Shown in pieces: positions 13,063 through 45,248 of a stretch of 64,000 bases of DNA. The stretch comes from Skeletonema tropicum. Lineage: Eukaryota; Bacillariophyta; Thalassiosirophyceae; Thalassiosirales; Thalassiosiraceae. The position numbers and the translations under genes were made by a program. Within the stretch, counting starts at the first letter, position 1. Each line of letters begins with the position of its first letter. The stretch is from positions 1 to 64,000 of the forward strand of contig CM074144.1 of the NCBI GenBank assembly GCA_037178625.1, given 5' to 3'. The notes beneath the pieces are model-generated. The model searched no databases, was not told where the DNA came from, and saw only the letters and a program-made list of their open reading frames with translations.

Positions 13063-14730
13063 TGTTTCCATGGGTGAAATCTCAAAAGTGGGAAAAGCCC
13101 ATGTACACATCCATCTTTTGTGATGTTCCATGGGTGAAATCTCAAAAGTGGGAAAAGCCCATGTACATATCCATCCGCGATCACTACTACAGCCCTACTT
13201 ACTACAGCCCCCAACGCACCGCGCACCACACCAACACACCTCAACACATAGGTTTGTTATATCTTGTTTTTTTGCAGTCTAGTACCACCTATATTTCAGC
13301 ACCTTATATTATACAGCCCATTTTTAGTATTTCTTCTTTGTCCTTATTTTTTTGTGTTACTAGAGAATGTCAGCACCTTATATTCGGAATTCCACATGTA
13401 GTCTTCTGTTAGGTTTCTAAATCGTTTATTGCACTGGTACTTATCAGAACCAATGTTCTATTTTTAATAGTTTATCACACTGGTACTTACCAGAACCAAT
13501 GTTCTATTCTTAATAGTTTATTGCACTGGTACTTACCAGAACCAATGTTATAATCTCAACCAAAATGTTTCGACCTGTGGAGTACTAAACAGTGAACAAA
13601 GTAAATGCTATGAATCAATTACTGAATGGATTTTATGGCTACTTTGTATCATGGTGAAAAACGTGAGGCTCGGCGATGCAGAATTCTTGCTGGATCGGAA
13701 TTCTGACACTGCTCGGAGTCGATCGAGAAACGAGAAAGAATCTCGGATACAAAGAAGTATCAGAGTTCAAACTCTGGTATTCCCGAGTGGTAAACGATGA
13801 GACTAGCACACCCTTGCCGAGACTTCTTTCTTGCGTTCATTGAGTTCTGTGATAACGCTGGGAGAAGACAATATTTCTGGGCGGATGTTTCGATGGTGTG
13901 CGCCTGGATGATGTTTGGTCCAGTAGTCAGCATAGTTCATTCGACCTGGGCGCCAATAGATGCGGAATTGTTTGAGAGTTTCTCTATCTCGTAGCCAGTG
14001 GAAACGCATGTCCATTGCCTTAGTGCGCTTTGGTTGCACTTTGCTGTTGATGACACCTTTGGCAGTGGAATTGTCTGTTTGGATGGGTGTGGCCGGTTGT
14101 GGATGTCCTAGTTGTTGAAGGATTAATCGAATGTAGATAGCTTCTCTTGCATTGATGTAGAGAGCAGCTAGTTCTGCTTCGGCGGCGGAAGTCATGACGT
14201 TTTTGATGATTTGCGCGATGTTCAAAATGGCTCTGTTGTTGGGTGGAAAGGGATCGTTGTTTGAAAGGAAGAAGTGTCCTCCAGCCCTGCTTCTTGCATT
14301 GGGTTCGCATAAATAGCTAGCATCGCTGTGCCTGGCTAATATCATTTCGCTAGCGTTGTAAGTTAGGACGGCTTCTTCTTGGGAGCTGACGTAATCGAGA
14401 AATTGGGTAGCCTTAGCCAGCGTGTCGGTGGTTGGATTGGATTGATTTGAGGCGATTGCGCTTAGTGGAGTCAGGAGTGTACCATCTACGGCTCGTCCTA
14501 GGTAGAGAAATTTCCTGTTATCTTGCGGATGCGACTTGCTGCTGCTTTGTCAAGGGGAGGCCTATTGTCGTCTGGTGTGGCGTACTGTGTTTTGGCACCA
14601 TAATTAGGAGGGACATGGCGATGTGGTTGGTCCTGTCTGTGCTCTGGTGGTTCATGGCCTAACTCTGTAATTGCTGTTTTGACGTAGCCAGGCATAGATA
14701 AATGTACTTTGCGTCGATCGTAATCCCAAT
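13063..14730 (-). mobile_element. Ty1/copia retroelement, copy 2, 3' half
   Basis: Positions 13075-13993 duplicate 1-919, and the copy then continues into RNase H and reverse transcriptase coding on the minus strand up to 14730. There a PH-type element end (AAACAGGGG...) interrupts the codon pair for YW in the reverse transcriptase region. Two 60-bp tandem units lie at 13075-13194. The opposite half of the element was not found in the window. Confidence 0.85.
13803..14730 (-). pseudogene. Copia Pol C-terminus (reverse transcriptase end and RNase H), frameshifted
   Basis: The reading order on the minus strand is the end of the reverse transcriptase domain (YWDYDRRKVHLSMPGYV, then RIRKITGNF), a one-base deletion near 14507, then LYLGRAVDG continuing into RNase H. 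RNase H acidic residues are visible in HSDASY, SAAEAELAAL and QTDNSTAKG, and the C-terminal GRMNYADYWTKHHPG block is typical of diatom copia Pol. The frameshift and the insertion at 14730 make it non-functional. Confidence 0.85.
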
Positions 14731-14947
14731 AAACAGGGGTGCGCAGAATGTGGCGAGAGTGGTGGCGTGGTGGTGCCTGTGGCGGGTTCAGCGCAGGCCC
14801 TCGGGGCCTGTCGAGTATTGTGTCATTTTGTAGTTGGCCATTGCACTTTGGTTTGTTAGTAGTCTTTTTACAACGGAATTCGGCTATAAAGTTGCTCTGC
14901 AATGACGTTGGCCTTAATTGGTATAATTGTGCTGTGCACAATTTGGT

Positions 14948-15265: not shown

Positions 15266-16129
15266 CACCCAACGAATCCGGCCGCACAGATCTCGCATAA
15301 AACGCAACAGCGCTCCACCAAATCATGACCGACGAACAACATCCAACTGAACACGATAACGACGACACCATGAACTCACCTGAAGCTACAGATGCAACTG
15401 AATCTGCTGTTGAATCTGCAGCTGAAGCTGTGGACGCAAAAAGCACGTTAAAGGAGACAACGAGTCCGCCAGACAATCAGATGAACACCCCCGGAAAGAA
15501 TAACACACCTACCGATCATACTGCCGAGGCTGTCACCAGACCAACCACCAACAACGTTATCACCCCTGACAAACCAACAGCAGGTACAGAAACGACTACG
15601 CAGCAAGTCGAGGAAGATCGACCTGAGCATTACATCAAAGGCACAAATACGGGCCTGCCAACAAAAATTAGTGCTACGGTTTTCGTTTGCTTCACCCATT
15701 TGGATCCAGAAGGCAAATTGGTAGCGGAGAATGTAAATCAAGCGGTACCAAGCAAGAGAAGATACTCGGGCTATTGAAACTGGTGGCTACGGGTAAATCC
15801 GGCGACAACAAAGAAATGAACGACAGTCAGATACACTTACACTTCAGCAAGAAAGCAGCGGAGGATGATTCCGCGGAAGATTGCGTGAGTTTACTTTTGT
15901 TGAATCTGCGCAACGAACCATTTTGTAAAATTGATCACTGTACAAATTTGGGAATGTTGATCGGCCCTCGGGGCCCCGGGTCGAAACAAGCGCAGTGAAG
16001 TGTCAATAACGGGGCCGGGAGGTGCCCAACCCCTTATGGTCACAAATTCTCCATTTTTTTCCAAACTTTTTTCTACAGGGATCTTGGTAGGAATCAGTAT
16101 AGTAGCTATTTAGTGAGAAGGTTTACCTG

Positions 16130-16392
16130 GGGGACACGTAGAGGCTCTGTAGACCCATACCGCTGTAGAATTTGTACTTGTTCCTACGTAGAAAGCGAGA
16201 AGTACCTGGCTTAAATGCGCTTTTTACAGAAATTGATTGGCTATATCTGTCGAGGATACCGTCATTCGCAGAAAGAAATGCAGGTATATTGTCATTATAG
16301 GTGACATGTTTCTTCATCACGAGAAATATTCTCCCTTTGTTGTATCTGTCAATTGAAAATAATTTTGTCTTCAAGACAAATTTATTTTCCAT
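16130..16392 (-). CDS. Small conserved ORF downstream of PIF1 in PH elements
   Basis: The translated end, FLSANDGILDRYSQS...GTSRFLRRNKY...LYVSPR, is recognisably related to the same position of PH-B elements (GTSCFLHRNTYRSYAG...LYVSLK), although the surrounding DNA is strongly diverged. Conservation at the protein level between two element types suggests a real coding exon or ORF. It could be the last exon of the helicase gene or a separate small gene. The upstream part overlaps the palindrome at 16355-16389 and may be untranslated. Confidence 0.5.
16355..16389. repeat. 35-nt palindrome after the PIF1 stop codon
   Basis: Near-perfect inverted repeat centred on the C of GTCTTCAAGAC, 34 nt downstream of the helicase stop. 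Equivalent palindromes lie at 38651-38685 (perfect, 17-bp arms) and 39833-39867. It may form an mRNA 3' hairpin or a DNA cruciform. Confidence 0.85.
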
Positions 16393-16423
16393 GCAAGTTG
16401 TGAATATCGCATTGTATCGTCCA

Positions 16424-17675
16424 CTAGGAAAAATAATCGCGTGGCAATTGGTATTCTTTCTTCGCTTCTTTCCATTTTTTGTTTGGGTTGGTTATGATTT
16501 CGGTGATGCGGTTCGTCAGGTCCTCTCTATTTTTTATTAAAGTACCACTCACTGCCTTTTGGTAAGTTGTTTTCGTCATTTCATCAAGCTTTCTTTTGTT
16601 GTATCTTGTCTTGGTTTCTTCTGCCTTGCCGTCAAGGTATTTGACCCATTTGTCCCGCTTCTTGAAGAGTTTGCAGAGTTGGCCATCTTGGTTCGTCTTG
16701 CAATTGTGTAACCGTTCTACAGACACGCTCGGCCCTGTCCAATAAATGGCACTATCCGTCGGGTGCATAACATTTTTGGAACCAAGTGTTTTGCCCCTGC
16801 TGGTAGCAACGTATCCTGTCCCAAGGCACTGGCTTCTCTCCCAGAGCTCATCTGACGGATCTATCACCATGCGATTCCATCGATCGTCCTTGCCGAACCC
16901 GGCCTCCATGCCCTGGCAGCGGTGTATTGTGATTGCGAATGCAATTTGCAGGGGCATGAACGTGGCAGTACAGCATCCTTTGTTGCAGATGTGAGTGTAG
17001 GGTGGTATTGGCACGTGCTGAGTGGAGTGGTGGAGTGGAGTGATTGCAAATTTGTGTAAAGAGGGATGATTGATCAGTGCCATGCTATATTTCGAGTTCA
17101 AGAATACATTTCTACTTTCACTCACCGTTGGATTCTTTTTGTCCCAGGGTTCAATGCCTTGCCGCGGTTTGAAGTATGGGAAATCAACGACTATATACTT
17201 TGGGAGGGATTCAACACCATTTGTGTTTGGTCCTACGGAGTGCTGCTCGTCATAAACGATGTCAATCACCTTCCCAATCGCTCCAACGTACAGGCCAGAG
17301 TTCGGATCAATGTTCGCTGTCTCCAGGCACATGTGCACACCAACGGAAACGTCTAAAGTGTACAACATCTTTTTGCCGAAGAAATGCGACTGGTACACAG
17401 TGGGATTGCCAACCATGTTGCTCTTGAATTGGCATCTGAGCCGTGCTACCGGTACTGACAGCCGTTTCTGTGTTTTTACGAGCATTTTGACATTTTGCTT
17501 ATTCATTTCCTCCCGTTTTGCGTAGGCATGCAATGTTTTTGGATCGTCCTCGATAGTGTCTCTGAACTTGGAGGAATAGTAGCTTAAATGCAAGTTGATC
17601 AAACGATGTGCGTCCTCCTTTGTTTGATCGTCACGAAGAATATTATATCTTTTAACGATATATTCGGAGCTGGAA
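16424..17675 (-). CDS. PIF1-like helicase, C-terminal half (PH-A, left arm)
   Basis: The frame runs from about 17675 (EYIVKRYNILRDDQTKED) to the stop at 16424. It shows late superfamily 1 helicase motifs: PLQIAFAITIHRCQGMEAG (motif V type, T-x-H-x-x-Q-G) and GYVATSRGKTLGS (motif VI type). A Lys/Arg-rich tail follows. Walker A and B are absent, so this is only the C-terminal half. A 108-nt intron (17018-17125, GTGAGT and CTCAG ends) happens to be open in frame; the diverged PH-B copy has a different, non-coding intron at the same place, which supports splicing. The upstream end meets an in-frame TGA near 17687, so the first exon(s) are missing or spliced from gene H. Confidence 0.75.
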
Positions 17676-17811
17676 GTAACATTGGGATCAGACGAAAAAT
17701 GTCAGCGATGAAGTGAAGTATCGGACCTCAAAATATTTTTGTCGTGGGGACAAATTTATTTTCAGAATCGTACACCGTACCACGGACACTCGTACAAGTA
17801 TAATAACTCAC

Positions 17812-19510
17812 CTTGTCTAGCAATGGACGATGCTGTATCTTTTACAGGTGTCACAACTGGAACTGGAATGACCTTTTCCGACAGCTCTCCCAACATAGAT
17901 CCAATAGTTCCAGACGCTTTTGTGTTCTGTGGAATTTCTCCAACTCCAACTGGCCGAGCTGCATTGCCATTATTGCTACGAAATACACCAGCATCGTCTG
18001 CTTCCAAGGGGGCGTTATCAACATTACCAACACCCATATTGGTGCCATCATTATCACGTTCTCCTGACAGTCTAGCAACCGAAGTAGCATTACGACACGG
18101 ATAATCCTTCACGGTAGAACCAGAAGACTCATGAAACAGGCGGTCGAGACAGCTGCGCGGAAGTCTACTGGTAGACGGAGAATCATATAAATGATCGCGA
18201 ATGGTTTGGCGGCCCACAAGACTGCAATCTTCTGAGCAGCGGCGATATGCGCGAACAGTAGCAGGTTGTTCCCCAGCATGATACAGCAACGCCGGAAGAT
18301 TAGTTGGGTCAACTGCTGACTCCTCACCAGAAGGAGTAGACGCTGGTATGTCCGTTTCAGACGGATGATGAGTATTCACTGGAGTTGCGGCACTACCATT
18401 GCTCTCTTTAGGGCACTGCTGTTCGATGTCATAATTTTTTGATGATTGCTTTAACTTTAACAAAGAACTCGCCTGCTCGACAACGTCATAATCATTATTA
18501 TTATCGCATGATCTCCATAATTTGCATGATGCATCAAATGCTTCTGCCTGCTCAAAGTTAGTGCATCTAACATGAGCGGGAGAGATGCAATCGCCTTGCT
18601 TTGTCTGCAGAAGAGGTATATCATGCTCGTTCTTGTTGTTGTCGACAACATCTTTTTTGTTGCCCGCTGTCACACCGCCATTGCTGAAGTAAATGAAAAT
18701 AGGGATAAGTAAGGATAAGTGATTAGTTTTTGACATGACGACATTCATATGGGAGAAACAATACCAGTTCAAGTTTAAAATAAATTTGCATACATCACAA
18801 TTTTATTGTTTTTGGCATGAACTCTATGGAAGGTTAATACCACACAGCAAAAAGCGACTTAAATGTAGATGAATGAGCGATCCTTTCTATGTTCGTACGA
18901 TCAATCTACGTAATGTTTTACGCAGTGTTAAGCGTTTCGCTTATACATGAAATTCTGAATCACATAAGACGCTTCTTCCAATTTCAGCTCATCTTAACAA
19001 TACACTTTCGGACTTACCCATTAGACAATACGCTGGAACACTCTGGAGCAGCCAACGACTGCAAGTTATGACTGTTATTTACACAACGGCCATAATTCAT
19101 TATTCCAGCTTTGCTTTCTGCATCCGATTTGTAGAACTGAGCCGAGCTTGAACCGTTACAGGTAACGTTGCGATTGGAAATGACATTGTAAGCGATAGAT
19201 AATTGTTCCTGTCTGGTGATCCTAGCTCAGACAATACATGTTTTAGTTCACGCATATTGCAAGAGGAAAGAACAAGCCTCAGAAGAGTATGTGGATCAGT
19301 AGAGTGTTCGAAGCATGGATTGCGCGATGATTGTAATTCTACTATTTCGCGGAAGATATGATCGCCTACACGCACTTTCGGCCATTGGACGTTGTAAATT
19401 ATTTGACGAATAGACAGAAATGAGCATCTAACACCCTTCCGAGCGCTCTTGCTGTTCACGTCGGAAGAGGATGGTTGCTGTTGCTGCGCTTTCTCTCTTG
19501 AAGAGTGCAT
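17812..19510 (-). pseudogene. Gene H of PH-A, left copy, unknown function, frameshifted
   Basis: Exon 1 is 19018-19510 (Met at 19510), exon 2 is 17812-18683, and the intron has GTAAGT and TTCAG ends. Compared with the right-arm copy (32321-32832) exon 1 has a 19-bp deletion at about 19217, which shifts the frame. Exon 1 encodes a domain with the pattern W-x2-VR-x2-D-x-IF...LL...LS...K(H/Y)-x-L-x-EL that is also recognisable in gene R of PH-B (35367-35851). Exon 2 is polar and Ser/Asn-rich and ends at a good donor (CAAG/GTGAGT). It lies just upstream of the PIF1 half in the same orientation, so H may be its N-terminal part. Confidence 0.55.
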
Positions 19511-21596
19511 ATTTTATACGGTCAATTTTGTTCGTGGTTTGGTTATGCCGGTCCGTAATGGTCACATATTTAAGATATTGATTTGCGTGCGAGGAATGTC
19601 ATACGCAAGCCACTCATTATTATTTATGCACTCTTCTAATTGCATGTGGTGTTCCGTAGCATGATAGTCGATGAGTGGCTGCGCGGAAAAGTCACGGATG
19701 GCGACATGTTCTTCCTGCCAGCAGAGAAGCTGACACGTTGAAGTTAGGAGAGGAACAAGTGACGTCATATATTTGAGAATATGTAAAACGCGATCGGTAT
19801 AAAGTACTGTCAAACGCGATCGGTAAATTATTTCGTCAAAAAGCCAACTCGGTTTTTGCATGATCGATGATCGTGCAGAAAAAGAGAAAAAGATGCCAAC
19901 ACAATGGCCTACAATGGCACCCCTAGTATGGCCGCCTATCTCAGTCCATGAGTATATTTCATAAGGTATCGATGGCCCATCCCTTAAACGACATTATGGC
20001 GATTTTTTCGCAGCAGTGTGGCGTTTCGGCTGCTGTAGGGGTGGAGATAATATCATTGCAATCCACTTCATTGAGATTTGAAATGAAAACAACCACCTTC
20101 CCTGCACCCATCGAAGATGATAAACATCTATAAGCACTACCCCTCCGCTACCCATCGCCGATGATAATATGAAGTGAGATTCTGGTTGCTCGGAATGACC
20201 ATTAAAGCCCCCCCACACCTCCAAAATACCAAGGACACAAGATGTGCACAAAATTGCATAAATAATTTGACACTCTAACACAACAATAAGCCTGTAGACC
20301 GCGGATCGAGCGGCTCTAAAGACCGCAACTCATCAACATTATTATATATAAGAAGTGTCGGCTATTTATTGTCCATAATATTGCAATAGGCTGGATAAAA
20401 ATAGCAACATCATAGACAGAAATGACATTTATGTAGCATGTATTAGTCATTTATTTATGCGGTGTAGACAGTTGTAATAATAAAACCCTGCGGCTGAATA
20501 GTTGCAAAGGGTGTTGTCTGCGATATAGTTCACTGGATATTACTATTGGTAGGGTTTGTGCAACGTGGTGGCTATGAGAGTAGCGGCTATCATGTTAGAT
20601 ACGACTGTCGAACGAAAAAACATGCATGCATGCAGTTGCGCTCCAGGTTGCTCGGACAGCGCGCTGCACTTTTTTGTTAGCTGCTATCAAAATCTTATGC
20701 AATTTTGCTTGGAACGGCTCTAAGTAAGTAAGTGAGTATGTACTATAAAACGTTTCTGTTATAAGAATGTTATTAAACAAGCATTGCAGAGCAACTTTAT
20801 AGACGGATACATTGCAAAAAAAATCCAACACGAAATCCACAGAATAATTTTGACATCATGACACATTTATGTTACAAAAACAAGCATTGCAGAGCAAATT
20901 TATAGACGGGTACATTGCAAAAAAAAAACAGGCCCCGAGGGCCCGCGCCGCACTACACACCACACACAACATGCAGTCACAAATCGCCGCGCGCACCATT
21001 TCATTCGTTGATCGATTGCGATGTTGCACAGAACGAATTTGTAAATTTGATCACTGTACAATTTTGGTAATATTGATTCGTCGATCGATTGCTGCAGCCA
21101 AACTACATCATGCTACTTGATTTGTATAATTGCTCACTGTGCGATTAAACGAATATTGATTTATAGATCCGTTGCTGAACTCACAACTAACACTTGATTG
21201 ATGCTACTCCACATTAATAACAGGAGAAGACAGAACCAGTCAATGCAACTCATATGTCATTGATTGCATCCAGTGAAGAAGCGAGGACTAGTGTGGCTTA
21301 CGGATTGCCATTCACGTATGTTCCAGAGCTATCACACTTAATCGACGTACTCAACGGAGATGATGGTAGTGGCACAGATGAAACGAAAAGAGAAATATCA
21401 GAGGCATTAACTGCTAATGTGACAACAGTCGAAGGTCAACGAAAGCTTTTGAGCACTGCAAGAAAGCACCATTGGCTAGATGAAAGTCAAAATGAAGTCA
21501 AGGTGGCAGTCCAAGACGGTATCGAGGGAGGATCGCTCCGTTGGACCAAACGGAAAAGGTGAGGTTAGCCTACCGAAGTACATTGTTGTGGATTTC

Positions 21597-25997: not shown

Positions 25998-26971
25998 TGG
26001 TTCTCCTACCTCAGACCACACCTCCTCAACTCGAACTATCGACATGGCCGACGCTTCCACTAGAGAGACACAAGATGCCATAACAAACAAACCCGTCCAT
26101 ACGGTAGCATAAATTTATAAATGACATAAGCGCTATGTCATGGCGCAGCTATCCGTCAAGTTTCATCACTGCAGCTATTGTATTAATTTCCATAATATCA
26201 ATAGAGCAGCGACTGCTCACACATCAAATCTCTCGCTCCGTCGCTCACTCCCATACCACCTCTTTTATTACCCCCCATGTTTAATAACACCCATATTGGC
26301 AGTAACCGCGCCTTCCTAATAATAATTAACGCCCCCCTATTTATTATTATTCTCATAACTACGCTATACACTCGGATATTTAAAGCCACACAAGGCAATA
26401 ATATTTACATGTCCAACAATAAATACATATTATTTCACTTGAATTAATCCTTTAAAAATTAGCATTATTATTTATCATAGTTGCTTATTATTTAGTTGAC
26501 ACTATCGGCAATACGATTCTGTCATTATTCCTCTGCATCTTCTTTTGAAGGGTAATAATACTACATTACATCAATGCATCCCCATCTGTGCGCAATTATT
26601 TCATCATGTTGATGTCGGCTACCGATGCTTCTCAGGCGATGGCGGCGGATCAATAAAACCTTCACTGATCGATTGCGCTATGTATGACGTTGAAAATATG
26701 CCGCCATACGTCTTATTGCTCCAAGTATTGGCCGAGAACGAGCCGGTGCCGCCGGGCGAGTTATTGTGATGACTTCGCTCCATTTTCTCTCTGCAGAATA
26801 TTATTAGATATCATGCTACACACAATATTATTATTCAGTTCCTTCGCCCCTCACGTCGGCTATGATGATGCGGCCATGTTGGTGCTATTTTTATGTGCAG
26901 GATTTTTGTGTGCTGTCGTCTACATAGTAGTAAGACATCATCTCCCCATGGTGATGGTCTTCGGGTTCGGA
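25998..26971 (+). repeat. End of the module plus repeat A, copy 2, abutting the telomere
   Basis: It repeats 12100-13051 with only small differences (for example two extra A's near 26454). The match stops at TTCGGA and TTAGGG repeats begin at 26972, while in copy 1 the sequence continues into TCGGGTGGTGGG. Confidence 0.92.
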
Positions 26972-27347
26972 TTAGGGTTAGGGTTAGGGTTAGGGTTAGG
27001 GTTAGGGTTAGGGTTAGGGTTAGGGTTAGGGTTAGGGTTAGGGTTAGGGTTAGGGTTAGGGTTAGGGTTAGGGTTAGGGTTAGGGTTAGGGTTAGGGTTA
27101 GGGTTAGGGTTAGGGTTAGGGTTAGGGTTAGGGTTAGGGTTAGGGTTAGGGTTAGGGTTAGGGTTAGGGTTAGGGTTAGGGTTAGGGTTAGGGTTAGGGT
27201 TAGGGTTAGGGTTAGGGTTAGGGTTAGGGTTAGGGTTAGGGTTAGGGTTAGGGTTAGGGTTAGGGTTAGGGTTAGGGTTAGGGTTAGGGTTAGGGTTAGG
27301 GTTAGGGTTAGGGTTAGGGTTAGGGTTAGGGTTAGGGTTAGGGTTAG
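26972..27347 (+). repeat. Telomere, (TTAGGG)n, right end of the left chromosome
   Basis: About 62 uninterrupted TTAGGG units in the orientation of a right chromosome end. The large ORFs reading through this stretch are translations of the repeat and of N's. Confidence 0.98.
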
Positions 27348-27847
27348 NNNNNNNNNNNNNNNNNNNNNNNNNNNNNNNNNNNNNNNNNNNNNNNNNNNNN
27401 NNNNNNNNNNNNNNNNNNNNNNNNNNNNNNNNNNNNNNNNNNNNNNNNNNNNNNNNNNNNNNNNNNNNNNNNNNNNNNNNNNNNNNNNNNNNNNNNNNNN
27501 NNNNNNNNNNNNNNNNNNNNNNNNNNNNNNNNNNNNNNNNNNNNNNNNNNNNNNNNNNNNNNNNNNNNNNNNNNNNNNNNNNNNNNNNNNNNNNNNNNNN
27601 NNNNNNNNNNNNNNNNNNNNNNNNNNNNNNNNNNNNNNNNNNNNNNNNNNNNNNNNNNNNNNNNNNNNNNNNNNNNNNNNNNNNNNNNNNNNNNNNNNNN
27701 NNNNNNNNNNNNNNNNNNNNNNNNNNNNNNNNNNNNNNNNNNNNNNNNNNNNNNNNNNNNNNNNNNNNNNNNNNNNNNNNNNNNNNNNNNNNNNNNNNNN
27801 NNNNNNNNNNNNNNNNNNNNNNNNNNNNNNNNNNNNNNNNNNNNNNN
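27348..27847. other. Assembly gap of exactly 500 N
   Basis: A round-number gap between two inward-facing telomeres. It most likely marks a scaffold join rather than sequenced DNA. Confidence 0.98.
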
Positions 27848-28215
27848 AACCCTAACCCTAACCCTAACCCTAACCCTAACCCTAACCCTAACCCTAACCC
27901 TAACCCTAACCCTAACCCTAACCCTAACCCTAACCCTAACCCTAACCCTAACCCTAACCCTAACCCTAACCCTAACCCTAACCCTAACCCTAACCCTAAC
28001 CCTAACCCTAACCCTAACCCTAACCCTAACCCTAACCCTAACCCTAACCCTAACCCTAACCCTAACCCTAACCCTAACCCTAACCCTAACCCTAACCCTA
28101 ACCCTAACCCTAACCCTAACCCTAACCCTAACCCTAACCCTAACCCTAACCCTAACCCTAACCCTAACCCTAACCCTAACCCTAACCCTAACCCTAACCC
28201 TAACCCTAACCCTAA
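27848..28215 (-). repeat. Telomere, (CCCTAA)n, left end of the right chromosome
   Basis: About 61 uninterrupted CCCTAA units in the orientation of a left chromosome end, ending at ...CCTAATTAGTAGC, where repeat B starts. Confidence 0.98.
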
Positions 28216-28741
28216 TTAGTAGCAAAGATTATATTGGGCGGGGTGGTATTTATTATCATGAGGATTACAGGGATGGTGCCGCTTTTGTTCGGATTTGATG
28301 GGGGAGGGGGATTGCGAGCATGGTTTGGCCAAGGGGATTGCAAGCAACAACATGTATGAGCGAGCGAGGCTCCTTATATAATATGGAAAATAATATTGTA
28401 GTTACAGGAACGATATTTGGCGGATATTAGCGCGATGATGTGGCGCAGATACCACCTGAATTTTATACAACGATATCATTAATTTGATGTGCTATGGCAA
28501 GTTGTGTCGAATGGTATTTGAGCGGCGCCATGGTGAGTTGTGTCGAGAGAAGGATGTAGGTTGGTGTGGTCTGAGGTAGGAGAACCAGATTGGTCAAATT
28601 TGGTAAAAGAGCTAATACAGTGGAATAAAGCTAGTAGTAGCCTTTGGAATTATGAGTAGTCACGATTGGCAATATGAGTAGTCCCGTTGGCAAGATGAGT
28701 CATTTGTAGCTCAAAATGCCAAAAAAAAGCAATTTGTTTAG
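28216..28741 (-). repeat. Inverted subtelomeric repeat B and module
   Basis: Reverse complement of about 21599-22124. The telomere begins inside repeat B at TAGTAGCAAAGATTA, so B is truncated here to about 355 bp, followed by the inverted module ending GCAATTTGTTTAGG at 28741. Confidence 0.9.
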
Positions 28742-29935: not shown

Positions 29936-32320
29936 ATGCAGGAGGATCAACTTTCTTCTTCACGTGGCGATGTTACTGCCGATGAGGGTTTTGTAGACGC
30001 TTCTTTAGAGACCAGTGATAGTAGTCGAGATGCTAATATGGAATCTGATGTATTTTGCAGAGGAAGGTGGCGGAGACCGTTATCCGAGTTTTTGGATTTA
30101 CATCAAGTCCTGTTTTCTACTGAAGGGATCATATCTACACGTTTATGGATTTACGTGTCTTCTGAAGAAGTGGATATCTACCATGTGGTGGACCGTCCTT
30201 CGTTAGTAATGGGTCTCTCCTTATTAGGAAGTCAAGAGGATAAATGGTGGATTGTCACCGTGTACAGGCCTTTGCCCGCACTTAACCCGGCATCTCTCTC
30301 GATTCGATCGGTGCTTCGTCTAGTTGTCTGCTTAGGAACCCGACATTATATTCTCGACACTTCTACATTGGGTGGAGACAAATTGATCGCAGTTATTATT
30401 CTTCGCATCATGGATCCTTCTGAATTCAGTACTTTGGTAACTCCTTCTGGTGTTAATACCAACATTTATCCATCTATGGATACACGTCCTATCGGTGTTA
30501 TAGTTTGTCTTCGACAACATGACCTCAGCGCCCTTTTGATGACCCTATTCTGGAAACTCGATATTCAGTTCCTGGGCACAAGTTCTATCAAGCGACAGCA
30601 TATCGATGTTGTTATCTTTGGTGAGCATCGTCACATCGCAGATCATCTACTCGATGGTACTCATGACTTCCTAGTTGTGAATAGAGGAGTGATGTTTTTC
30701 AGTTGCGAGGGACTCATACTTACACATTATCTCTTGAGACTATGGGGAGTAATGGTAATCTTTAGTGTCGACTTTATCTGGTTGCACGATCTTTCGCAAT
30801 GGACACAACATGTTCGATACTATGAAATGGTGCGCGCGGCGATTTGTGACTGCATGTTGTGTATGGTGTGTAGTGCGGCGCGGGCCCTCGGGGCCTGTTT
30901 TTTTTTTGTGCAATGTACCCGTCTATAAATTTGCTCTGCAATGCTTGTTGTTGTAACATAAATGTGTCATGATGACAAAATTATTCTGTGGATTTCGTGT
31001 TGGATTTTTTTTTGCAATGTATCCGTCTATAAAGTTGCTCTGCAATGCTTGTTTAATAACATTCTTATAACAGAAACGTTTTATAGTGCATACTCACTTA
31101 CTTACTTAGAGCCGTTCCAAGCAAAATTGCATCGTAGATGCATAAGATTTTGATAGCAGCTAACAAAAAAGTGCAGCGCGCTTTCCGAGCACAACTGCAT
31201 GCATGCATGTTTTTTCGTTCGACAGTCAGTATCTAACATCATAGCCGCTACTCTCATAGCCACCACGTTGCACAAACCCTACCAATAGTAATATCCAGTG
31301 AACTATATCGCAGACAACACCCTTTGCAACTATTCAGCCGCAGGGTTTTATTATTACAACTGTCTACACCGCATAAATAAATGACTAATACATGCTACAT
31401 AAATGTCATTTCTGTCTATGATGTTGCTATTTTTATCCAGCCTATTGCAATATTATGGACAATAAATAGCCGACACTTCTTATATATAATAATGTTGATG
31501 AGTTGCGGTCTTTAGAGCCGCTCGATCCGCCGTCTACAGGCTTATTGTTGTGTTAGAGTGTCAAATTATTTATGCAATTTTGTGCACATCTTGTGTCCTT
31601 GGTATTTTGGAGGTGTGGGGGGGGTTTAATGGTCATTCCGAGCAACCAGAATCTCACTTCATATTATCATCGGCGATGGGTAGCGGAGGGGTAGTGCCTA
31701 TAGATGTTTATCATCTTCGATGGGTGCAGGGAAGGTGGTTGTTTTCATTTCAAATCTCAATGAAGTGGATTGCAATGATATTATCTCCACCCCTACAGCA
31801 GCCGAAACGCCACACTGCTGCGAAAAAATCGCCATAATGTCGTTTAAGGGATGGGCCATCGATACCTTATGAAATATACTCATGGACTGAGATAGGCGGC
31901 CATACTAGGGGTGCCATTGTAGGCCATTGTGGTGGCATCTTTTTCTCTTTTTCTGCACGATCATCGATCATGCAAAAACCGAGTTGACTTTTTGACGAAA
32001 TAATTTACCGATCGCGTTTGACAGTACTTTATACCGATCGCGTGTTACATATTCTCAAATATATGACGTCACTTGTTCCTCTCCTAACTTCAACGTGTCA
32101 GCTTCTCTGCTGGCAGGAAGAACATGTCGCCATCCGTGACTTTTCCGCGCAGCCACTCATCGACTATCATGCTACGGAACACCACATGCAATTAGAAGAG
32201 TGCATAAATAATAATGAGTGGCTTGCGTATGACATTCCTCGCACGCAAATCAATATCTTAAATATGTGACCATTACGGACCGGCATAACCAAACCACGAA
32301 CAAAATTGACCGTATAAAAT

Positions 32321-33350
32321 ATGCACACTTCAAGAGAGAAAGCGCAGCAACAGCAACCATCCTCTTCCGACGTGGACAGCAAGAGCGCTCGGAAGGGTGT
32401 TAGATGCTCATTTCTGTCTATTCGTCAAATAATTTACAAAGTCCAATGGCCGAAAGTGCGTGTAGGCGATCATATCTTCCGCGAAATAGTAGAATTACAA
32501 TCATCGCGCAATCCATGCTTCGAACACTCTACTGATCCACATACTCTTCTGAGGCTTGTTCTTTCCTCTTGCAATATGCGTGAACTAAAACATGTATTGT
32601 CTGAGCTAGGATGCGTAATGGATCTATATCGCACCAGACAGGAACAATTATCTATCGCTTACAATGTCATTTCCAATCGCAACGTTACCTGTAACGGTTC
32701 AAGCTCGGCTCAGTTCTACAAATCGGATGCAGAAAGCAAAGCTGGAATAATGAATTATGGCCGTTGTGTAAATAACAGTCATAACTTGCAGTCGTTGGCT
32801 GCTCCAGAGTGTTCCAGCGTATTGTCTAATGGGTAAGTCCGAAAGTGTATTGTTAAGATGAGCTGAAATTGGAAGAAGCGTCTTATGTGATTCAGAATTT
32901 CATGTATAAGCGAAACGCTTAACACTGCGTAAAACATTACGTAGAGTGATCGTACGAACATAGAAAGGATCGCTCATTCATCTACATTTAAGTCGCTTTT
33001 TGCTGTGTGGTATTAACCTTCCATAGAGTTCATGCCAAAAATAAAATTGTGATGTATGCAAATTTATTTTAAACTTGAACTGGTATTGTTTCTCCCATAT
33101 GAATGTCGTCATGTCAAAAACTAATCACTTATCCTTACTTATCCCTATTTTCATTTACTTCAGCAATGGCGGTGTGACAGCGGGCAACAAAAAAGATGTT
33201 GTCGACAACAACAAGAACGAGCATGATATACCTCTTCTGCAGACAAAGCAAGGCGATTGCATCTCTCCCGCTCATGTTAGATGCACTAACTTTGAGCAGG
33301 CAGAAGCATTTGATGCATCATGCAAATCATGGAGATCATGCGATAATAAT
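32321..33350 (+). pseudogene. Gene H of PH-A, right copy, first part
   Basis: Exon 1 is 32321-32832 (170 codons plus 2 nt, donor GTAAGT) and is open, unlike the left copy. The intron 32833-33163 ends TTCAG. Exon 2 starts at 33164 and is cut at 33350 by the nested PH-B element; its remainder resumes at 37280. The N-terminus is Gln/Ser-rich, then the W-VR-D-IF domain (about residues 40-105; VQWPKVRVGDHIF, then ELKHVLSELG). The function is unknown. Confidence 0.6.
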
Positions 33351-33506
33351 CGGCCCTCGGGGCCCCCGTTCATGGAGTGCAGAGCAGCGTAATAGGGGGC
33401 CGCAGGTGCCCTTCTATTACAGGTGGGAAAATTCATTATTTTTCACCCCCATTATTCTACAGAGTTATAGGTAGGAATCAGTACATGTGTTTTTTAGTGA
33501 GAAGGT

Positions 33507-33785
33507 TTACTTTAGGGACACGTAGAGTCCTCGGTAGAGACTACCGGCGTAGGATCTGTATGTGTTCCTATGTAGAAAGCAAGAAGTACCTGTTGAAAGC
33601 GAGAAATTGACTGTACTAGATGCGCTTTTTGAGCATCTATATCGGTCTGTACGAGAAAGAAATACAGGTTTTACACGGGCGTTAGTCGATTTAGTTTTTG
33701 TCTTTCTTCGTCGCGAGAAAATGTCTTTTTGTAAAACTGTGCTTGATATATCGAATCGTGCGCTTGCAGATGTTTTACTGATCAC
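33507..33785 (-). CDS. Small conserved ORF of PH-B
   Basis: 92 codons ending GTSCFLHRNTYRSYAGS then RGLYVSLK, matching in position and pattern the ORF at 16130-16392 of PH-A and nearly identical to 45580-45864. It sits between the helicase stop and the hairpin end and shares its strand with the helicase. The function is unknown. Confidence 0.5.
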   Translation of the reverse strand: MISKTSASARFDISSTVLQKDIFSRRRKTKTKSTNARVKPVFLSRTDRYRCSKSASSTVNFSLSTGTSCFLHRNTYRSYAGSLYRGLYVSLK

Positions 33786-34972
33786 CAGATGCAGACGCTT
33801 AATTGAGTTGTTGTATTCTTTGTGGTGAGAAAGTGTCTGTTTTGTAAAACTGTGCAGTGATCAATTTTACTAATCACCAGATGAAGATCCTGCGAAGTAA
33901 TCACTTGGGATTTCATGATCCTTCTTCGCTTCTTTCCACTTCTTGTTCGGGTTATGATGTCAGTAATCCTGGTTGTCAGGTCTGTCCTGTCTTTGATGAA
34001 ATCGCCCTTGATTGCTGCTGCGTATGATGTTTTTGTGATTTCCTCTAACTTTCTCTTGCTATACCTCGTCTTCGACTCTTCTGCCTTCCCCTCCAAGTAT
34101 TTCACCCAATTTGCTCGCTTCTTGTACGATTCGCAGAACTGGCCATTTTGCTTTCTCTTGCAATTTTTTAATCGGTTCGTTGAAATGTTGCTTCCGGTCC
34201 AGTATATGGCACTGTCCGACGGGTATGCTTGATCTTTGGAGCCAAGTGTTTTGCCTCTGCTGGTAGCCACGTACATTGTTCCAAGAAACTTGCTAATCTC
34301 CCACAACTCATCTGCTGGATCTATTATCATGCGGTTCCAGCGGTCTCCTTTGTCGAATCCAGCTTCGAGTCCTTGACAGCGGTGGATGGTGATGGCGTAG
34401 GCAATTTGCAATGGCATGAATAATGCGGTGCAGCATCCCCTGTTGCAAATCTGCTCGTAGGGTGGGATTGGCACGTGCTGTGCGCAATAAGTTGGGGTAG
34501 GATGCATTTGTATCAGTATGAAATGAGTTAGTAGTGTTTTCGCAGAGAGTGGCAATTGTCTTGTGTCTTTCGTGTGTCAACTTTTACTCACCGTTGGGTT
34601 GTTCTTGTCCCATGGGTCCTCGCCTGGTGGTGGTTTGTATGTAGGGAAATCCACAACAATGTACTTCGGTAGGCTAACCTCACCTTTACCGTTTGGTCCA
34701 ACGGAGCGATCCTTATCGTAAACGATCTCGACTACTACCCCAATAGCTGAGACGTACAATCCTGAGTTGGGATCGATGTTGGCTGACTCCAAGCAAACAT
34801 GTGCACCTACGCACACATCAAAGGTGTAGAATAGCCTCCTGCCGTAAAAGTGCAACTGGTATGCTGTGTTATTGCCCGCCATCCTGCTGCTGAATTGACA
34901 CCTGAGCCTAGCTATTGGTACTTTCAGTCGTTCGTGTGTTTTGATCAGCATGTCTACGTAGGCAGTTGCATT
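33782..34972 (-). CDS. PIF1-like helicase, C-terminal half (PH-B)
   Basis: Exons 34592-34972 and 33782-34477 are joined over a 114-nt intron with GTGAGT and GCACAG ends. The first exon opens at NATAYVDMLIKTHERLKV, which lines up with KQNVKMLVKTQKRLSV of PH-A. Helicase motifs are PLQIAYAITIHRCQGLEAG and MYVATSRGKTLGS. The N-terminal ATPase motifs are missing, because an in-frame TAA precedes 34972 and no acceptor is visible there. It is therefore probably a truncated gene, non-autonomous alone. Confidence 0.7.
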
Positions 34973-35074
34973 TGTTTATTAGGTAAAATTGTTCAGTGAT
35001 CGATTATACTAAAATGATTCAATAAGCAAGCGATACTTAGTGCGGCAGTGCACATGCACACAAAATAAACTCAC

Positions 35075-35851
35075 ATGATAGTTGAATCAGGAGAGGCCTT
35101 CTCTCCGACAGGTACCGGTTTAGACTTTTTCGTGACAGCACCTTTCTCGGACAAATCCGGTTCATCATCATCTTGAACAGGCTGATCACGGGAGCCCGAA
35201 TGAGTTTTGTCTTCAAGTACAAGTTTCCCGTTCTCATCACTGGTGTGAAGTTGAAGGTTGAAAAAAAAACTTGTAAGTAAAAAGGAAAGACAGAATTTGT
35301 AAAACGGTACAATGAACAAAAATACCAAAATCATTGAACCACACGAAGGTTAACCTTCTCTCTTACCAAAAATGCTCACAATTTGAAGTGTACGGCGCTT
35401 GGCTTGTACCTCCTTTCTGAGCAATAGCGGCAAACATTAAGAAGTTGACCGCTGCAGACACCAGATCATCTTTGTCAGTAGAATCAGTCTTACCAACTGG
35501 GACATTCGGGTAATGTTCAGACAGTTCATTCAGGATGTACTTGATTGACCCGACTTCAAAGACGGAAAGAGCAGAAAAGAGCAGTTGTTCCTTCTCCAAC
35601 TTGGCAACGTCAAACCCATCGCCTAATGCAACAGACGCTAGCAGCAAGAAGATACGATCGTCGGTACGCACCAAACGCCAATTGATGTCTGTTACGCTCA
35701 ATGCAATGACAGGAGCCGACGGTTTAGCGGCAGTCTTGACCCCTGACGAAGTAAGACGTGCATCGACATTGCTCCGATTCCGCACGGCACGGAAGCCCTT
35801 ACCATTACTACCAACGGTGGATATAACTGGATTTGTGTTGCCAAACTTCAT
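35075..35851 (-). CDS. Gene R of PH-B, N-terminal domain protein, incomplete
   Basis: Exon 1 is 35367-35851 (Met at 35851) and exon 2 is 35075-35239; intron ends are GTAAGAG and CACCAG. Exon 1 has LSVTDINWRLVRTDDRIFLLL, then FDVAKLEKEQLLFSALS and IKYILNELSEHYP, matching the H-domain pattern. Exon 2 is acidic and Lys-rich and ends at a donor-like ATGTGAGTTT, pointing to a missing downstream exon. It lies upstream of and parallel to the PIF1 half, like gene H in PH-A. Confidence 0.5.
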
Positions 35852-36341
35852 TATTTATTCGGACAATGTAGAAATGTGATGATGTAAATGATGCAATGCA
35901 TAATTTATGAGAGCTGTTGAACGGCTCGACAACGTACAAACTGCCTACATAACCGCCGCCAACGCACCAGCGCAATAATCAGCAGAGAACAATGCAATCA
36001 ATAACCAACCACGTCATGAAGTAAACGAGTTCCTTCGTAAGCTACGTCGGCAACACAAGATCTTGTGGTTCAACACATCGACAACACGTCGACAAAAAGA
36101 TTCAGCTCAACACAAGACGTCGACGTGGAGTTAAGAACTGACGTATTGATCAGTACGTGGCCAAAGATCGGCAGTTATTCAAATGCAAACACGTCGGCAA
36201 CCAACGTCGGCGTCTATTTAGACTTGCATCAATAGACGACTCGGCAGATAATGTAATTGAGCCAATGTCGACCTGAGTACTTGCTGCATGAACTTAAATA
36301 CTTTTTTGTTCATTGGATTTTGCCAACACCTGACTTCTGGT

Positions 36342-36658
36342 ACTTTGTGACGTAAGACGATTGGAATCAAGTGTACTAATTCCTTAAGTAACGAAGTTTA
36401 CCACGTCACTCAGAGAAAAAATTAAGAAAATAGAGGGTGACGGGGATGCACACCGGAAAGAACGAAGAAGCTCATCGACAATCTGACTTAATTAGCCTGG
36501 AAAAGTCCTTTTTAGCACAAATCAAGCGATTTTTAGATCTAAATCATAAGATATAGCATCTAAATGACAATCAAAATGGGCATTTCAGCGGGGATGGGAG
36601 GGGGGAAAATCCCAACACTTCAAGTTGAAGTTCCGGAAGTAATTCAGAGCAAAGCACG
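36342..36658 (+). repeat. Repeat segment shared with 14948-15265
   Basis: Carries the ATG at 36564 and the peptide MTIKMGISAGMGGGKIPTLQ before diverging into RSYATLDLPDGKDM. See the partner at 14948. It is likely a captured or shuffled exon inside PH-B elements. Confidence 0.8.
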
Positions 36659-37279
36659 TAGCTACGCTACTTTGGATCTCCCCGATGGAAAAGATATGCC
36701 TTGTACGCTGGCCCACGCCCACGAAACGCCAACAAAACTTACGACCGTTAGAACAATGACAGCTACCACGCCTTTTCTCATTCTTGAGACCTTTTGATTC
36801 AAATTTTTTGTGGCCTGTCTCCATGCAATTAGAACCGCTGATGAAGGTGGCTAAGCTCCACCGAAACTCGTAATTAATGAATCATAAAGAGTTCGGTTAT
36901 ATTGCTTACTACCATCATCTGGAAAAACTCCTAGCTTGTAATAAGGACTTCGTGGCTTATTGCATTCAAGACATTTCTTTTCACATTGATAAAGATTGAC
37001 AACGTCATTGCAGAGCAACTTTATAGCCGTATTCTATTGTAAAGAGACTAATTGGTAAAATTGTGCACAGCACAATTATACCAATTAAGGCCAACGTCAT
37101 TGCAGAGCAACTTTATAGCCGAATTCCGTTGTATAAAGACTACTGACAAGCCACACAGCAAATGGCCAACAGCAAGATGACGACACAATACTTTACAGGC
37201 CCCGAGGGCCCGCGCTGAACCCGCCACATACACCGCTGCACGCCACCACTATTGCACCATTCTGCGCGCCCCTGTTTAT

Positions 37280-37903
37280 AATGATTATGACGTTGTCGAG
37301 CAGGCGAGTTCTTTGTTAAAGTTAAAGCAATCATCAAAAAATTATGACATCGAACAGCAGTGCCCTAAAGAGAGCAATGGTAGTGCCGCAACTCCAGTGA
37401 ATACTCATCATCCGTCTGAAACGGACATACCAGCGTCTACTCCTTCTGATGAGGAGTCAGCAGTTGACCCAACTAATCTTCCGGCATTGCTGTATCATGC
37501 TGGGGAACAACCTGCTACTGTTCGCGCATATCGCCGCTGCTCAGAAGATCGCAGTCTTGTGGGCCGCCAAACCATTCGCGATCATTTATATGATTCTCCG
37601 TCTACCAGTAGACTTCCGCGCAGCTGTCTCGACCGCCTGTTTCATGAGTCTTCTGGTTCTACCGTGAAGGATTATCCGTGTCGTAATGCTACTTCGGTTG
37701 CTAGACTGTCAGGAGAACGTGATAATGATGGCACCAATATGGGTGTTGGTAATGTTGATAACGCCCCCTTGGAAGCAGACGATGCTGGAGTATTTCGTAG
37801 CAATAATGGCAATGCAGCTCGGCCAGTTGGAGTTGGAGAAATTCCACAGAACACAAAAGCGTCTGGAACTATTGGATCTATGTTGGGAGAGCTGTCGGAA
37901 AAG
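37280..37903 (+). pseudogene. Gene H exon 2 remainder fused to a PIF1 segment
   Basis: It continues H exon 2 from the PH-B insertion site and reads on to ELSEK. At about 37903 it jumps to the helicase exon end (AATCCAACG/GTGAGT), skipping about 1 kb present between the two genes in the left-arm copy. Splicing would place the next exon out of frame, so the fusion looks like a deletion by-product. Confidence 0.7.
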
Positions 37904-38022
37904 GGAATCCAACGGTGAGTGAATGTAGAAATGTATTCTTGAATTCGAAATATAGCATGGCACTGATCAATCATCCCTCTTTACACAAATTTGTAATCAC
38001 TCCACTCCACCACTCCACTCAG

Positions 38023-38616
38023 CACGTGCCAATACCACCCTACACTCACATCTGCAACAAAGGATGCTGTACTGCCACGTTCATGCCCCTGCAAATTGCA
38101 TTCGCAATCACAATACACCGCTGCCAGGGCATGGAGGCCGGGTTCGGCAAGGACGATCGATGGAATCGCATGGTGATAGATCCGTCAGATGAGCTCTGGG
38201 AGAGAAGCCAGTGCCTTGGGACAGGATACGTTGCTACCAGCAGGGGCAAAACACTTGGTTCCAAAAATGTTATGCACCCGACGGATAGTGCGATTTATTG
38301 GACAGGGCCGAGCGTGTCTGTAGAATGGTTACACAATTGCAAGACGAACCAAGATGGCCAACTCTGCAAACTCTTCAAGAAGCGGGACAAATGGGTCAAG
38401 TACCTTGACGGCAAGGCAGAAGAAACCAAGACAAGATACAACAAGAGAAAGCTCGACAAAATGACGAAAACGACTTACCAAAAGGCAGTGAGTGGTACTT
38501 TAATAAAGAATAGAGAGGACCTGACAAACCGCATCACCGAAATCATAACCAACCCAAACAAAAAATGGAAAGAAGCGAAGAAAGAATACCAATTGCCACG
38601 CGATTATTTTGCCTAG
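38023..38616 (+). pseudogene. PIF1-like helicase C-terminal exon, duplicated copy 1
   Basis: Starts after the CTCAG acceptor and runs HVPIPPYTHICNKGCC to PRDYFA. It is nearly identical to 39202-39798 (for example W for R in SVEW/SVER). It lacks the upstream helicase exon, so it is probably inert. Confidence 0.75.
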
Positions 38617-38650
38617 TGGACGATACAATGCAATATTCACAACTTGCATG

Positions 38651-38685
38651 GAAAATAAATTTGTCTTCAAGACAAATTTATTTTC
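38651..38685. repeat. Perfect 35-nt palindrome after the PIF1 stop
   Basis: 17-bp perfect arms around one central C, 34 nt after the stop at 38616. The second tandem copy has it at 39833-39867 with one mismatch, and the left arm has it at 16355-16389. Confidence 0.92.
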
Positions 38686-38751
38686 AATCGAGCAACATGA
38701 CAAATTAACGACAATCAATAAAGGATTCAACAAAGGGAGAATATTTCTCGT

Positions 38752-39798
38752 CAGAAACGGCTGTCAGTACCGGTAGCACGGCTCAGATGCCAATTCAAGA
38801 GCAACATGGTTGGCAATCCCACTGTGTACCAGTCGCATTTCTTCGGCAAAAAGATGTTGTACACTTTAGACGTTTCCGTTGGTGTGCACGTGTGCCTGGA
38901 GACAGCGAACATTGATCCGAACTCTGGCCTGTACGTTGGAGCGATTGGGAAGGTGATTGACATCGTTTATGACGAGCAGCACTCCGTAGGACCAAACACA
39001 AATGGTGTTGAATCCCTCCCAAAGTATATAGTCGTTGATTTCCCATACTTCAAACCGCGGCAAGGCATTGAACCCTGGGACAAAAAGAATCCAATGGTGA
39101 GTGAATGTAGAAATGTATTCTTGAATTCGAAATATAGCATGGCACTGATCAATCATCCCTCTTTACACAAATTTGTAATCACTCCACTCCACCACTCCAC
39201 TCAGCACGTGCCAATACCACCCTACACTCACATCTGCAACAAGGGATGCTGTACTGCCACGTTCATGCCCCTGCAAATTGCATTCGCAATCACAATACAC
39301 CGCTGCCAGGGAATGGAGGCCGGGTTCGGCAAGGACGATCGATGGAATCGCATGGTGATAGATCCGTCAGATGAGCTCTGGGAGAGAAGCCAGTGCCTTG
39401 GGACAGGATACGTTGCTACCAGCAGGGGCAAAACACTTGGTTCCAAAAATGTTATGCACCCGACGGATAGTGCCATTTATTGGACAGGGCCGAGCGTGTC
39501 TGTAGAACGGTTACACAATTGCAAGACAAACCAAGATGGCCAACTCTGCAAACTCTTCAAGAAGCGGGACAAATGGGTCAAGTACCTTGACGGCAAGGCA
39601 GAAGAAACCAAGACAAGATACAACAAAAGAAAGCTTGATGAAATGACGAAAACAACTTATCAAAAGGCAGTGAGTGGTACTTTAATAAAGAATAGAGAGG
39701 ACCTGACGAACCGCATCACCGAAATCATAACCAGCCCAAACAAAAAATGGAAAGAAACGAAGAAAGAATACCAATTGCCACGCGATTATTTTGCCTAG
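38752..39798 (+). pseudogene. PIF1-like helicase C-terminal half, duplicated copy 2
   Basis: Opens at QKRLSVPVARLRCQF and runs through the in-frame 108-nt intron (39097-39204; here it begins GTGAGTGAATG) to PRDYFA. Motifs are PLQIAFAITIHRCQGMEAG and GYVATSRGKTLGS. About 90 codons of the upstream helicase sequence present at 17404-17675 are missing. Confidence 0.75.
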
Positions 39799-39927
39799 TG
39801 GACGATACAATGCGATATTCACAACTTGCATGGAAAATAAATTTGTCTTCAAGACAAATTTATTATCAATCGACATGACAAATTAACGACAATCAATAAA
39901 GGATACAACAAAGGGAGAATATTTCTC

Positions 39928-40125
39928 GTGATGAAGAAACATGTCACCTATAATGACAATGTACCTGTATTTCTTTCTGCAAATGATGGTATCCTCGACA
40001 GATATAGCCAATCAATTTCTGTTAAAAGCGCATTTAAGCCAGGTACTTCTCGCTTTCTACGTAGGAACAAGTACAAATCCTACAGCGGTATGGGTCTACA
40101 GAGCCTCTACGTGTCCAGCAGGTAA
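39928..40125 (+). CDS. Small conserved ORF of PH-A, right arm
   Basis: 65 codons from ATG at 39928 (MMKKHVTYNDNVPVFLSAND...GTSRFLRRNKYKSYSG...LYVSSR). Same position and sense as 16130-16392 with a few substitutions. Confidence 0.5.
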   Translation: MMKKHVTYNDNVPVFLSANDGILDRYSQSISVKSAFKPGTSRFLRRNKYKSYSGMGLQSLYVSSR

Positions 40126-41357
40126 ACTTTCTCACTAAACAGCTACTATACTGATTCCTACCAAGATCCCTGTAGAAAAATTTTGGATGAATTTGGATGA
40201 ATTTGTGACCATAAGGGGTTGGGCACCTCCCGGCCCCGTTATCGACACTTCACTGCGCTTGTTTCGACCCGGGGGGCCCCGAGGGCCGATAATCAACTTG
40301 TGACCAAGATTCATGTTGCGTGGGGAGATGTTTTGCAATCGACGTATGCATTACTCGGGAGAACGGAGACACTCTTGACATCTACTACAAGCATCGATGT
40401 CTTTCAAGACGAATCCAGTGGTGTTATTATCACTCACAAGTCCCAGAAGATTGATCGTTGCATGATACTTGCTCACAGTTGTCACAACTCCGATCACACA
40501 TCCAACAAGATCTTGTTTATTACCATCGCTTGGTCTGTACTTGAATTACTTGTACGATATGATCCTTCGCACATTCAAGGCTATGCATTTGTTCGTGGCA
40601 TGATATCTTATGTCTCTACAGCTTTAGAGCTACTGCGATATCACAAGATGATGATTGGAGAGTACTGTCCTGTGAAGATGCGATACTTTATTAATTTAGA
40701 GTTTCTTTTGTCCTGCGAGATGAATGGGGAGTAAATTCCTTCAATTGAATATCTATCTGTGATGATACGACGTTACCACTATCCTGCGAAGATGAGAGAC
40801 TTTATTATTTCAGAGTTGATTTGGTACTGCGAGTCGAATGGAATTCAGTTCTACAAGACGAAGAATGGGGAGCAAGTTCTACTCTATAAGTTGATGGACA
40901 TCCAAGAAGATTCTGCCGTTGGAAGCCAAGTTGTTGTTTGTTCTCCTGCTACGAAGATTGAATTTTACCACCATCGAGCACAACTAGTCGATGCGGAATG
41001 CAATGCACTTGTTCTTAAGTCCTTACAAGACTTCGCTGCTCAGTTCTATTCACATGATTCTCGAGACCTTGCTGATAGGATCTATATCGTCGTCGCTTGC
41101 AGGTTGCATCGCTTTTCATTTGCGGAGATTACTCGAGGTCATCGACAGTATCACGTCTTGCTACGGAACGTCATCATCAACAACGTTTTCTTGGATCGAC
41201 ATCATTCTGTCATGGTTACTGCTGAGGAATATGGGGAGACATCATCATCTACTCGACTTCATCATATCATTCGTCCGTCGGAAGATACTTCCTTTTGCAA
41301 ATCTTACAACATGCTTGCTTTACTTGGTATTGCCGTGAGAGAAAATATTATTTGCAA

Positions 41358-45246: not shown

Positions 45247-45248
45247 AT

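Follow-up and report, generated by a model that had tools for sequence, protein, structure and literature searches.

Two nested mobile elements interrupt a host gene

We analyzed the first 64,000 nucleotides of contig CM074144.1 from the diatom Skeletonema tropicum (hereafter, the window), in which a mobile element, PH-A, with a second element, PH-B, nested inside, splits an open reading frame (ORF) of the host (Table 1). A preliminary description of this DNA had placed here a single 9.5-kb element with palindromic ends, removal of which, together with one AT, restores the host frame. Indeed, the frame broken at 30823 resumes at 40291 and remains open for 147 codons. The split ORF is one of a multicopy family: the genome (78.4-Mb assembly, 125 contigs) contains 90 matches, many of them with open frames near 1000 aa. 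All 20 relatives of the split gene that we fetched read uninterruptedly through CGATACTA/TAATCAACTTG without any insert (slashes denote insertion points throughout), and CGATACTA/TAATCAACTT is the exact empty site of the window element in the same 20 sequences. The continuity of the frame and the exact insertion point were thus borne out by the empty sites that the preliminary description had proposed to look for. That the frames match by chance, or that the assembly is at fault, was conceivable as long as the case was based on a single locus, is otherwise devoid of support, and is refuted by these exact empty sites and by the hundreds of palindrome ends, with no hits for reversed control patterns, described below.

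The 9.5-kb insert is not a single element. A BLAST search with its whole sequence revealed that the middle block, 33350-37278, is missing from all 20 other PH-A copies fetched (of 40 scored among 137 candidates), 17 of which hold both ends. The exact empty site of this block, ATGCGATAATAA/TAATGATTATG, is present in 19 of these 20 copies, and the remaining one (L026) lacks that stretch. The block is therefore a separate insertion, PH-B, a relative of PH-A lying in reverse orientation, with its own ends and empty site; the earlier view of a mobile element with palindromic ends stands, whereas that of one 9.5-kb unit does not. PH-A proper spans ~5538 bp in the window (5.54 kb) and 5541 bp in copy L036.

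Table 1. Coordinates of the split host ORF, PH-A, PH-B and their parts in the window
Feature	Position	Strand	Remarks
Left part of split multicopy host ORF	29936..30822	+	Open frame runs 29936-30823
PH-A plus nested PH-B, 9467 bp	30823..40289	+	Host A 30822 precedes, host T 40290 follows
Left terminal stem	30833..30882	+	Arms 30833-30837 (CGCGC) and 30878-30882 (GCGCG); 10 nt inside left end
Left palindromic inverted repeat GGCCCTCGGGGCC	30883..30895	+	60 nt from left end
Exon 1 of predicted 444-aa PH-A gene	32321..32836	+	
Exon 2 of predicted 444-aa PH-A gene	33164..37914	+	Interrupted by PH-B (33350-37278)
Nested PH-B, 3929 bp	33350..37278	-	Ends A/TAAACAGGGGCGCG...GGGCCGA/T
Helicase-tail ORF of PH-B	33782-34555	-	
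First partial helicase C-terminus	37915..38616	+	Motif FAITIHRCQGM
Second partial helicase C-terminus, 330 aa	38806..39798	+	98-99% identical to C-terminus of 948-aa helicase frames
Right palindromic inverted repeat GGCCCCGAGGGCC	40275..40287	+	2 nt from right end
Right part of split host ORF	40290..40731	+	Ends at in-frame TAA, 40732

Insertion is precise and leaves no target duplication

Comparison of the fetched copies, the flanks of which differ from one another, assigned each border base. The element reads TGAA...CCGA, with T 30823 belonging to the element and T 40290 to the host. The left border is A/TGAA in 23 of 23 distinct flanks, the base preceding that A being T (17) or A (6), and the right border is CCGA in 23 of 24 distinct flanks and CCAA in the other one. 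The first host base after the right border varies: 15 of these 24 flanks have T, 4 each have C or A, and 1 has G. When 40 of 137 left-end candidates were scored, self included, the alignments of 38 others began 1-9 bases beyond the border, and that of one (contig C16, 97%) began 20 bases beyond it.

The joined flanks of 17 PH-A copies were also searched as one query, with 40 of 942 candidates scored. Four of these 17 further insertions yielded full-length matches across the joined junction at 97-100% identity: L017, with host T (13 loci, 100%); L032, with an A/A junction (1 locus, 100%); L035, with an A/G junction (26 loci, 100%); and L030, with an A/C junction (4 loci, 97-99%, three with small length differences). 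For the other 13, no full-length match appeared among the 40 scored candidates. None of the six insertions for which an empty site is known shows a target duplication, and insertion is precise, with neither duplication nor loss of bases. The A/A, A/G and A/C empty sites, along with the variable right flank, assign T 40290 to the host and reveal that AT is not a fixed target dinucleotide. The borders flush with AT proposed earlier thus mark the insertion point exactly but each lies one base off (the element occupies 30823-40289), and AT does not recur as a conserved flank.

The ends carry palindromic repeats and a subterminal stem

Both termini of PH-A carry 13-bp palindromic inverted repeats and, as had been described, lack a CTRR 3' end in either orientation (TGAA...CCGA; in reverse, TCGG...TTCA). 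Read in reverse, PH-A starts TC-GGCCC-TCG-GGGCC, which puts the repeat, a potential hairpin, 2 nt inside the terminus. Its partner is situated 60 nt (family A) or 66-68 nt (family B) from the opposite terminus. In 12 of 12 left ends compared, of types A, B and B', a 5-nt stem arm begins 10 nt inside the end, and the other arm adjoins the repeat; one of these ends (L101) begins with C instead of T. The outer stem pair of B' is T-A instead of C-G, which is one compensatory change; a B'-type left end bearing this pair occurs in the window at ~14730-14808. When folded to lowest energy, the left ends, the window right end and the B right end include the palindrome hairpin, but the common A right end does not.

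PH-A lacks a recognizable transposase

Besides its ends, PH-A holds two tandem copies of a helicase tail, ~1.18 kb apart, which match Pfam UvrD_C_2 below the curated cut-off. The PIF1-type signal noticed earlier is therefore real, but it stems from two partial C-termini and not from a whole helicase. No Rep match was found with Pfam in the PH-A ORFs of at least 120 aa. The two-exon 444-aa gene was predicted from copy L036, which is free of PH-B, and its product has no Pfam match above cut-off. We sought a diverged host parent of this gene; with 95 of 279 candidates scored, the identities of all 104 matches listed lay at 96-100%, and none resembled such a parent. PH-A appears to be a derivative that keeps its ends and a duplicated helicase tail and carries an unrelated 444-aa gene.

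The same ends bound 18.4-kb elements with a predicted Rep-helicase

The exact left (GGGCCCTCGGGGCCTGT) and right (GGCCCCGAGGGCCGA) palindromes occur 325 and 335 times in the genome, respectively, and their reversed control patterns do not occur at all. On contigs C1-C8, 79 of the 92 left ends listed have a same-strand right end at most 22 kb downstream, as compared with 27/92 for opposite-strand and 22/92 for wrong-order controls. The palindrome-to-palindrome spans cluster at ~3.9, 4.2, 4.35, 4.65, 5.54, and 18.4 kb. The longest class is represented by copies on C1, C5, and C7, with 18.44-18.47 kb between palindromes, that begin A/TGAAATGGTGCGCGC and end ...CCGA/T, which are the ends of PH-A. 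Each of these spans contains one Helitron_like_N and one PIF1 match, out of 68 and 111 in the whole genome.

A related copy on C9 has matches to Helitron_like_N (E 1e-19), PIF1 (E 3e-17) and DUF6570, and to Ulp1 Peptidase_C48 (E 7e-11) in a separate ORF; the Rep and Ulp1-like ORFs lie around a 948-aa helicase frame. A 6-kb stretch upstream recurs full-length at 95% in ten other copies. Rep and helicase are in separate ORFs, but removal of two predicted GT-AG introns, one of 106 nt and an in-frame one of 131 nt, would join an N-terminal exon, Rep and helicase into a 1971-aa open protein model with DUF6570, Helitron_like_N, and PIF1. The only named Rep homologue is a protein of the diatom Cyclotella cryptica (HJC23_005173, P0002), 41% identical over the Rep region and endowed with the same three domains; its fused form supports the predicted joining of Rep and helicase. 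Of 13 homologues found, 10 were aligned, and all of them retain H-x-H and Y-x3-Y; these motifs are present in 11 of 11 aligned sequences. A PDB sequence search with Rep gave no match. Since elements with the ends of PH-A encode an HUH Rep and a PIF1 helicase, its likely autonomous partner belongs to the Helitron superfamily.

These data also bear on whether PH-A could be a DNA transposon of the cut-and-paste or another type, equipped with subterminal palindromes, that acquired its helicase by chance. Inverted 13-bp palindromes at both ends would suit such an element, and a PIF1-type helicase alone is not diagnostic. However, the six insertions with known empty sites lack a target duplication, identical ends are found on elements that carry a Helitron_like_N Rep, and no DDE transposase was matched by Pfam in the ORFs tested, a scope that leaves ~4.3 kb of the partner outside. 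We regard this origin as highly improbable.

The full length of the partner rests on the C1, C5, and C7 copies. On C9, a left palindrome is at C9:189526, 8475 bases upstream of 198001, which gives a partner span of C9:189526-211860; no left palindrome was found from C9:198001 on, nor upstream of a second C9 copy. An opposite-strand palindrome pair of ~3.9 kb (C9:192727-196588) is seemingly nested in this partner copy, and its removal would leave ~4.55 kb upstream, as in the other copies.

Two further spans of ~7.9-8.9 kb with palindrome ends are, by coordinates only, candidate autonomous elements: C8:102698-110516, with Rep and PIF1 matches, and C3:921969-930846, with a PIF1 match. A second Helitron_like_N group (C1:4981812, C22:1443527, and others) consists of single open frames of ~2000-2400 aa, some with a nearby PIF1 match in a frame of the same length, and represents another Helitron lineage in this genome. 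The public protein set contains a 3251-aa Rep-helicase listing Ulp1 (C48) and PF00443 domains (P0020), which indicates that Ulp1-type proteases recur in this Rep group, and a Rep-helicase protein with an endonuclease (P0021).

PH-A is a non-autonomous member of the Helitron superfamily

Its Helitron2-like ends and the domains of its likely partner place PH-A among the non-autonomous elements of the Helitron superfamily. The superfamily features are a two-tyrosine HUH Rep and a PIF1-type helicase in the presumed partner and the lack of target duplication. The suspected relation to Helitrons was therefore correct, but the element type, formerly deemed unnameable and perhaps a new lineage, can be named: the family is a Helitron variant with ends near the Helitron2/HINE layout and no new element class.

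Several subgroups were considered. Helitron1, which has 5'-TC and CTRR-3' ends and always inserts between A and T, was rejected: the reverse reading has TC but no CTRR, and the host base is A on one side in 23/23 but T on the other in only 15/24. Helentrons, whose RepHel carries an AP endonuclease domain, were rejected too, as none of the 74 PF03372 matches in the genome falls inside the C1, C5, and C7 spans or near a C3 copy whose right end is not listed. Replitrons have a single catalytic tyrosine, and the partner Rep has two, spaced Y-x3-Y.

We compared PH-A with the layouts given in published reports. Helitron2 elements have hairpins at both ends, inverted repeats of 8-15 bp, a 5' T, the 5' repeat 0-2 nt from the 5' end and the 3' repeat ~20-30 nt from the 3' end (PMC3627910). 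Reversed PH-A likewise opens with T, has a 13-bp repeat 2 nt inside the 5' end and its partner ahead of the 3' stem, and lacks CTRR. It differs in target preference and in the Ulp1-like ORF that travels along, and it is not formally filed as Helitron2 because the spacing of its 3' repeat is outside the published range. HINE/DINE-1 elements, non-autonomous Helentrons, are described with palindromic subterminal repeats of 12-15 bp, one 2-4 nt from the 5' terminus and the other 38-60 nt from the 3' terminus, a 3' palindrome 8-35 nt from the end and no target modification (PMC4067079). Reversed family A fits all three positions published there, whereas the 66-68 nt spacing of family B and the absence of endonuclease matches in the partner spans depart from this group. 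The FoHeli elements of Fusarium oxysporum have inverted repeats each of which is itself a hairpin, with a loop of 3 nt; in FoHeli1/2, insertion takes place before T and the 3' repeat is 38-51 nt from the terminus, and the ORFs of FoHeli4/5 run in the opposite orientation (PMC5148889). Judging from that description, PH-A resembles them in repeats that could form such hairpins, in insertion before T and in ORFs that would run in the opposite orientation, but its end sequences are different and the 3' spacing of FoHeli1/2 is shorter. Finally, a hairpin ~11 nt from the 3' end acts as terminator in Helraiser, a Helitron1 (PMC4778049); this element, as reported, and the PH-A family have in common Rep plus helicase, no target duplication and, on the reversed reading, a stem near the 3' end, and PH-A is set apart by its inverted repeats, the lack of CTRR and a base on the non-T side that is not fixed. 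Ends such as those of PH-A are absent from the titles and abstract openings of the Helitron/Helentron, Replitron, DUF6570 and Peptidase C48 literature searched.

Proposed mobilization in trans with reversed polarity

We consider it quite probable that PH-A is mobilized in trans by the Helitron-type Rep-helicase (RepHel) of the same-ended 18.4-kb elements, with a polarity opposite to the orientation of the preliminary description; mobilization in trans, a rolling-circle step and the polarity are what we infer. Rep would nick at the TC-palindrome end, the right one in the window, and the helicase would displace a single strand. Transfer would stop at the second inverted repeat and the stem behind it, 10 nt from the ...CATTTCA end. 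The released strand, or a circle formed from it, would then insert in front of a T in the target (A or other base/T, then A or T), leaving no duplication. In both the transposase gene of family A and the helicase tail of PH-B, coding proceeds from the plain to the palindrome end. The transposase gene would thus be antisense to the polarity of the element, an arrangement reported for some Helitron2 elements and Helentrons (PMC3627910, PMC4067079, PMC5148889). We prefer the reversed reading because this layout fits HINE in family A and largely Helitron2, and because of the terminator hairpin of Helraiser.

Several observations weigh against this interpretation. The 3' repeat lies 60-68 nt from the 3' end, as opposed to 20-30 nt in Helitron2, and the PH-A target differs from that of Helentrons in not being T-rich on both sides, with flanks other than TT. 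The continuity of Rep and helicase in the partner relies on predicted GT-AG introns, and the 18.4-kb element is composed from partial copies, with ~4.3 kb outside the sequence read. As for the ends, the five distinct stem sequences include one double change, a score equaled by 105 of 500 shuffles, and the fold z-scores range from +0.4 to -2.0. The common A-type right end, without the two extra G of the window copy, prefers a different, longer stem. Among 7 further B-type left ends, the preceding base is A in 5, and one starts with C, not T.

The same enzyme could also act with the opposite polarity, starting at A/TGAA and stopping at the palindrome 2 nt from the right end, as a mirror-image Helitron2. 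The RepHel gene would then run in the usual direction, the host A before TGAA is invariant (23/23), like the A before Helitron1 5' ends, and the terminal hairpin is not the lowest-energy fold of the common right end. Yet, this arrangement would entail a 5' end of TG/TA instead of TC or T plus hairpin, a stop palindrome almost at the terminus and the 10-nt-spaced stem at the start, while it is the reversed reading that matches published HINE on all three positions in family A. We therefore judge this polarity unlikely. Equally doubtful would be its broader implication, a mirror-image Helitron lineage, likely of diatoms, in which the initiation and termination signals are swapped with respect to described layouts and an Ulp1-type protease travels with the transposase.

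The family provides an unusually clean natural record of Helitron-like insertion: its ends number in the hundreds, its copies are very similar, some insertions are nested, and exact empty sites define the two borders to the base. Since its genes run from the plain to the palindrome end, it renders testable how RepHel recognizes start and stop and whether gene direction and polarity are independent. Searches based solely on TC...CTRR would probably miss such elements in algal genomes, as has been pointed out for the fungi of PMC5148889.

Other features of the window

The window contains both ends of another PH-A-type element, at 15961-21003 on the minus strand. An A-type left end at 45247 (-) lies close to a B-type right end at 46020 (+) and probably marks another element nest. 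The window copy of the host ORF has an additional lesion, the in-frame TAA at 40732, after which the same frame is open to 42238. Upstream of the split gene, long ORFs overlap on both strands at 26684-28225, and the segment 27001-28000 has a G+C content of only 24.9% and a strong skew.

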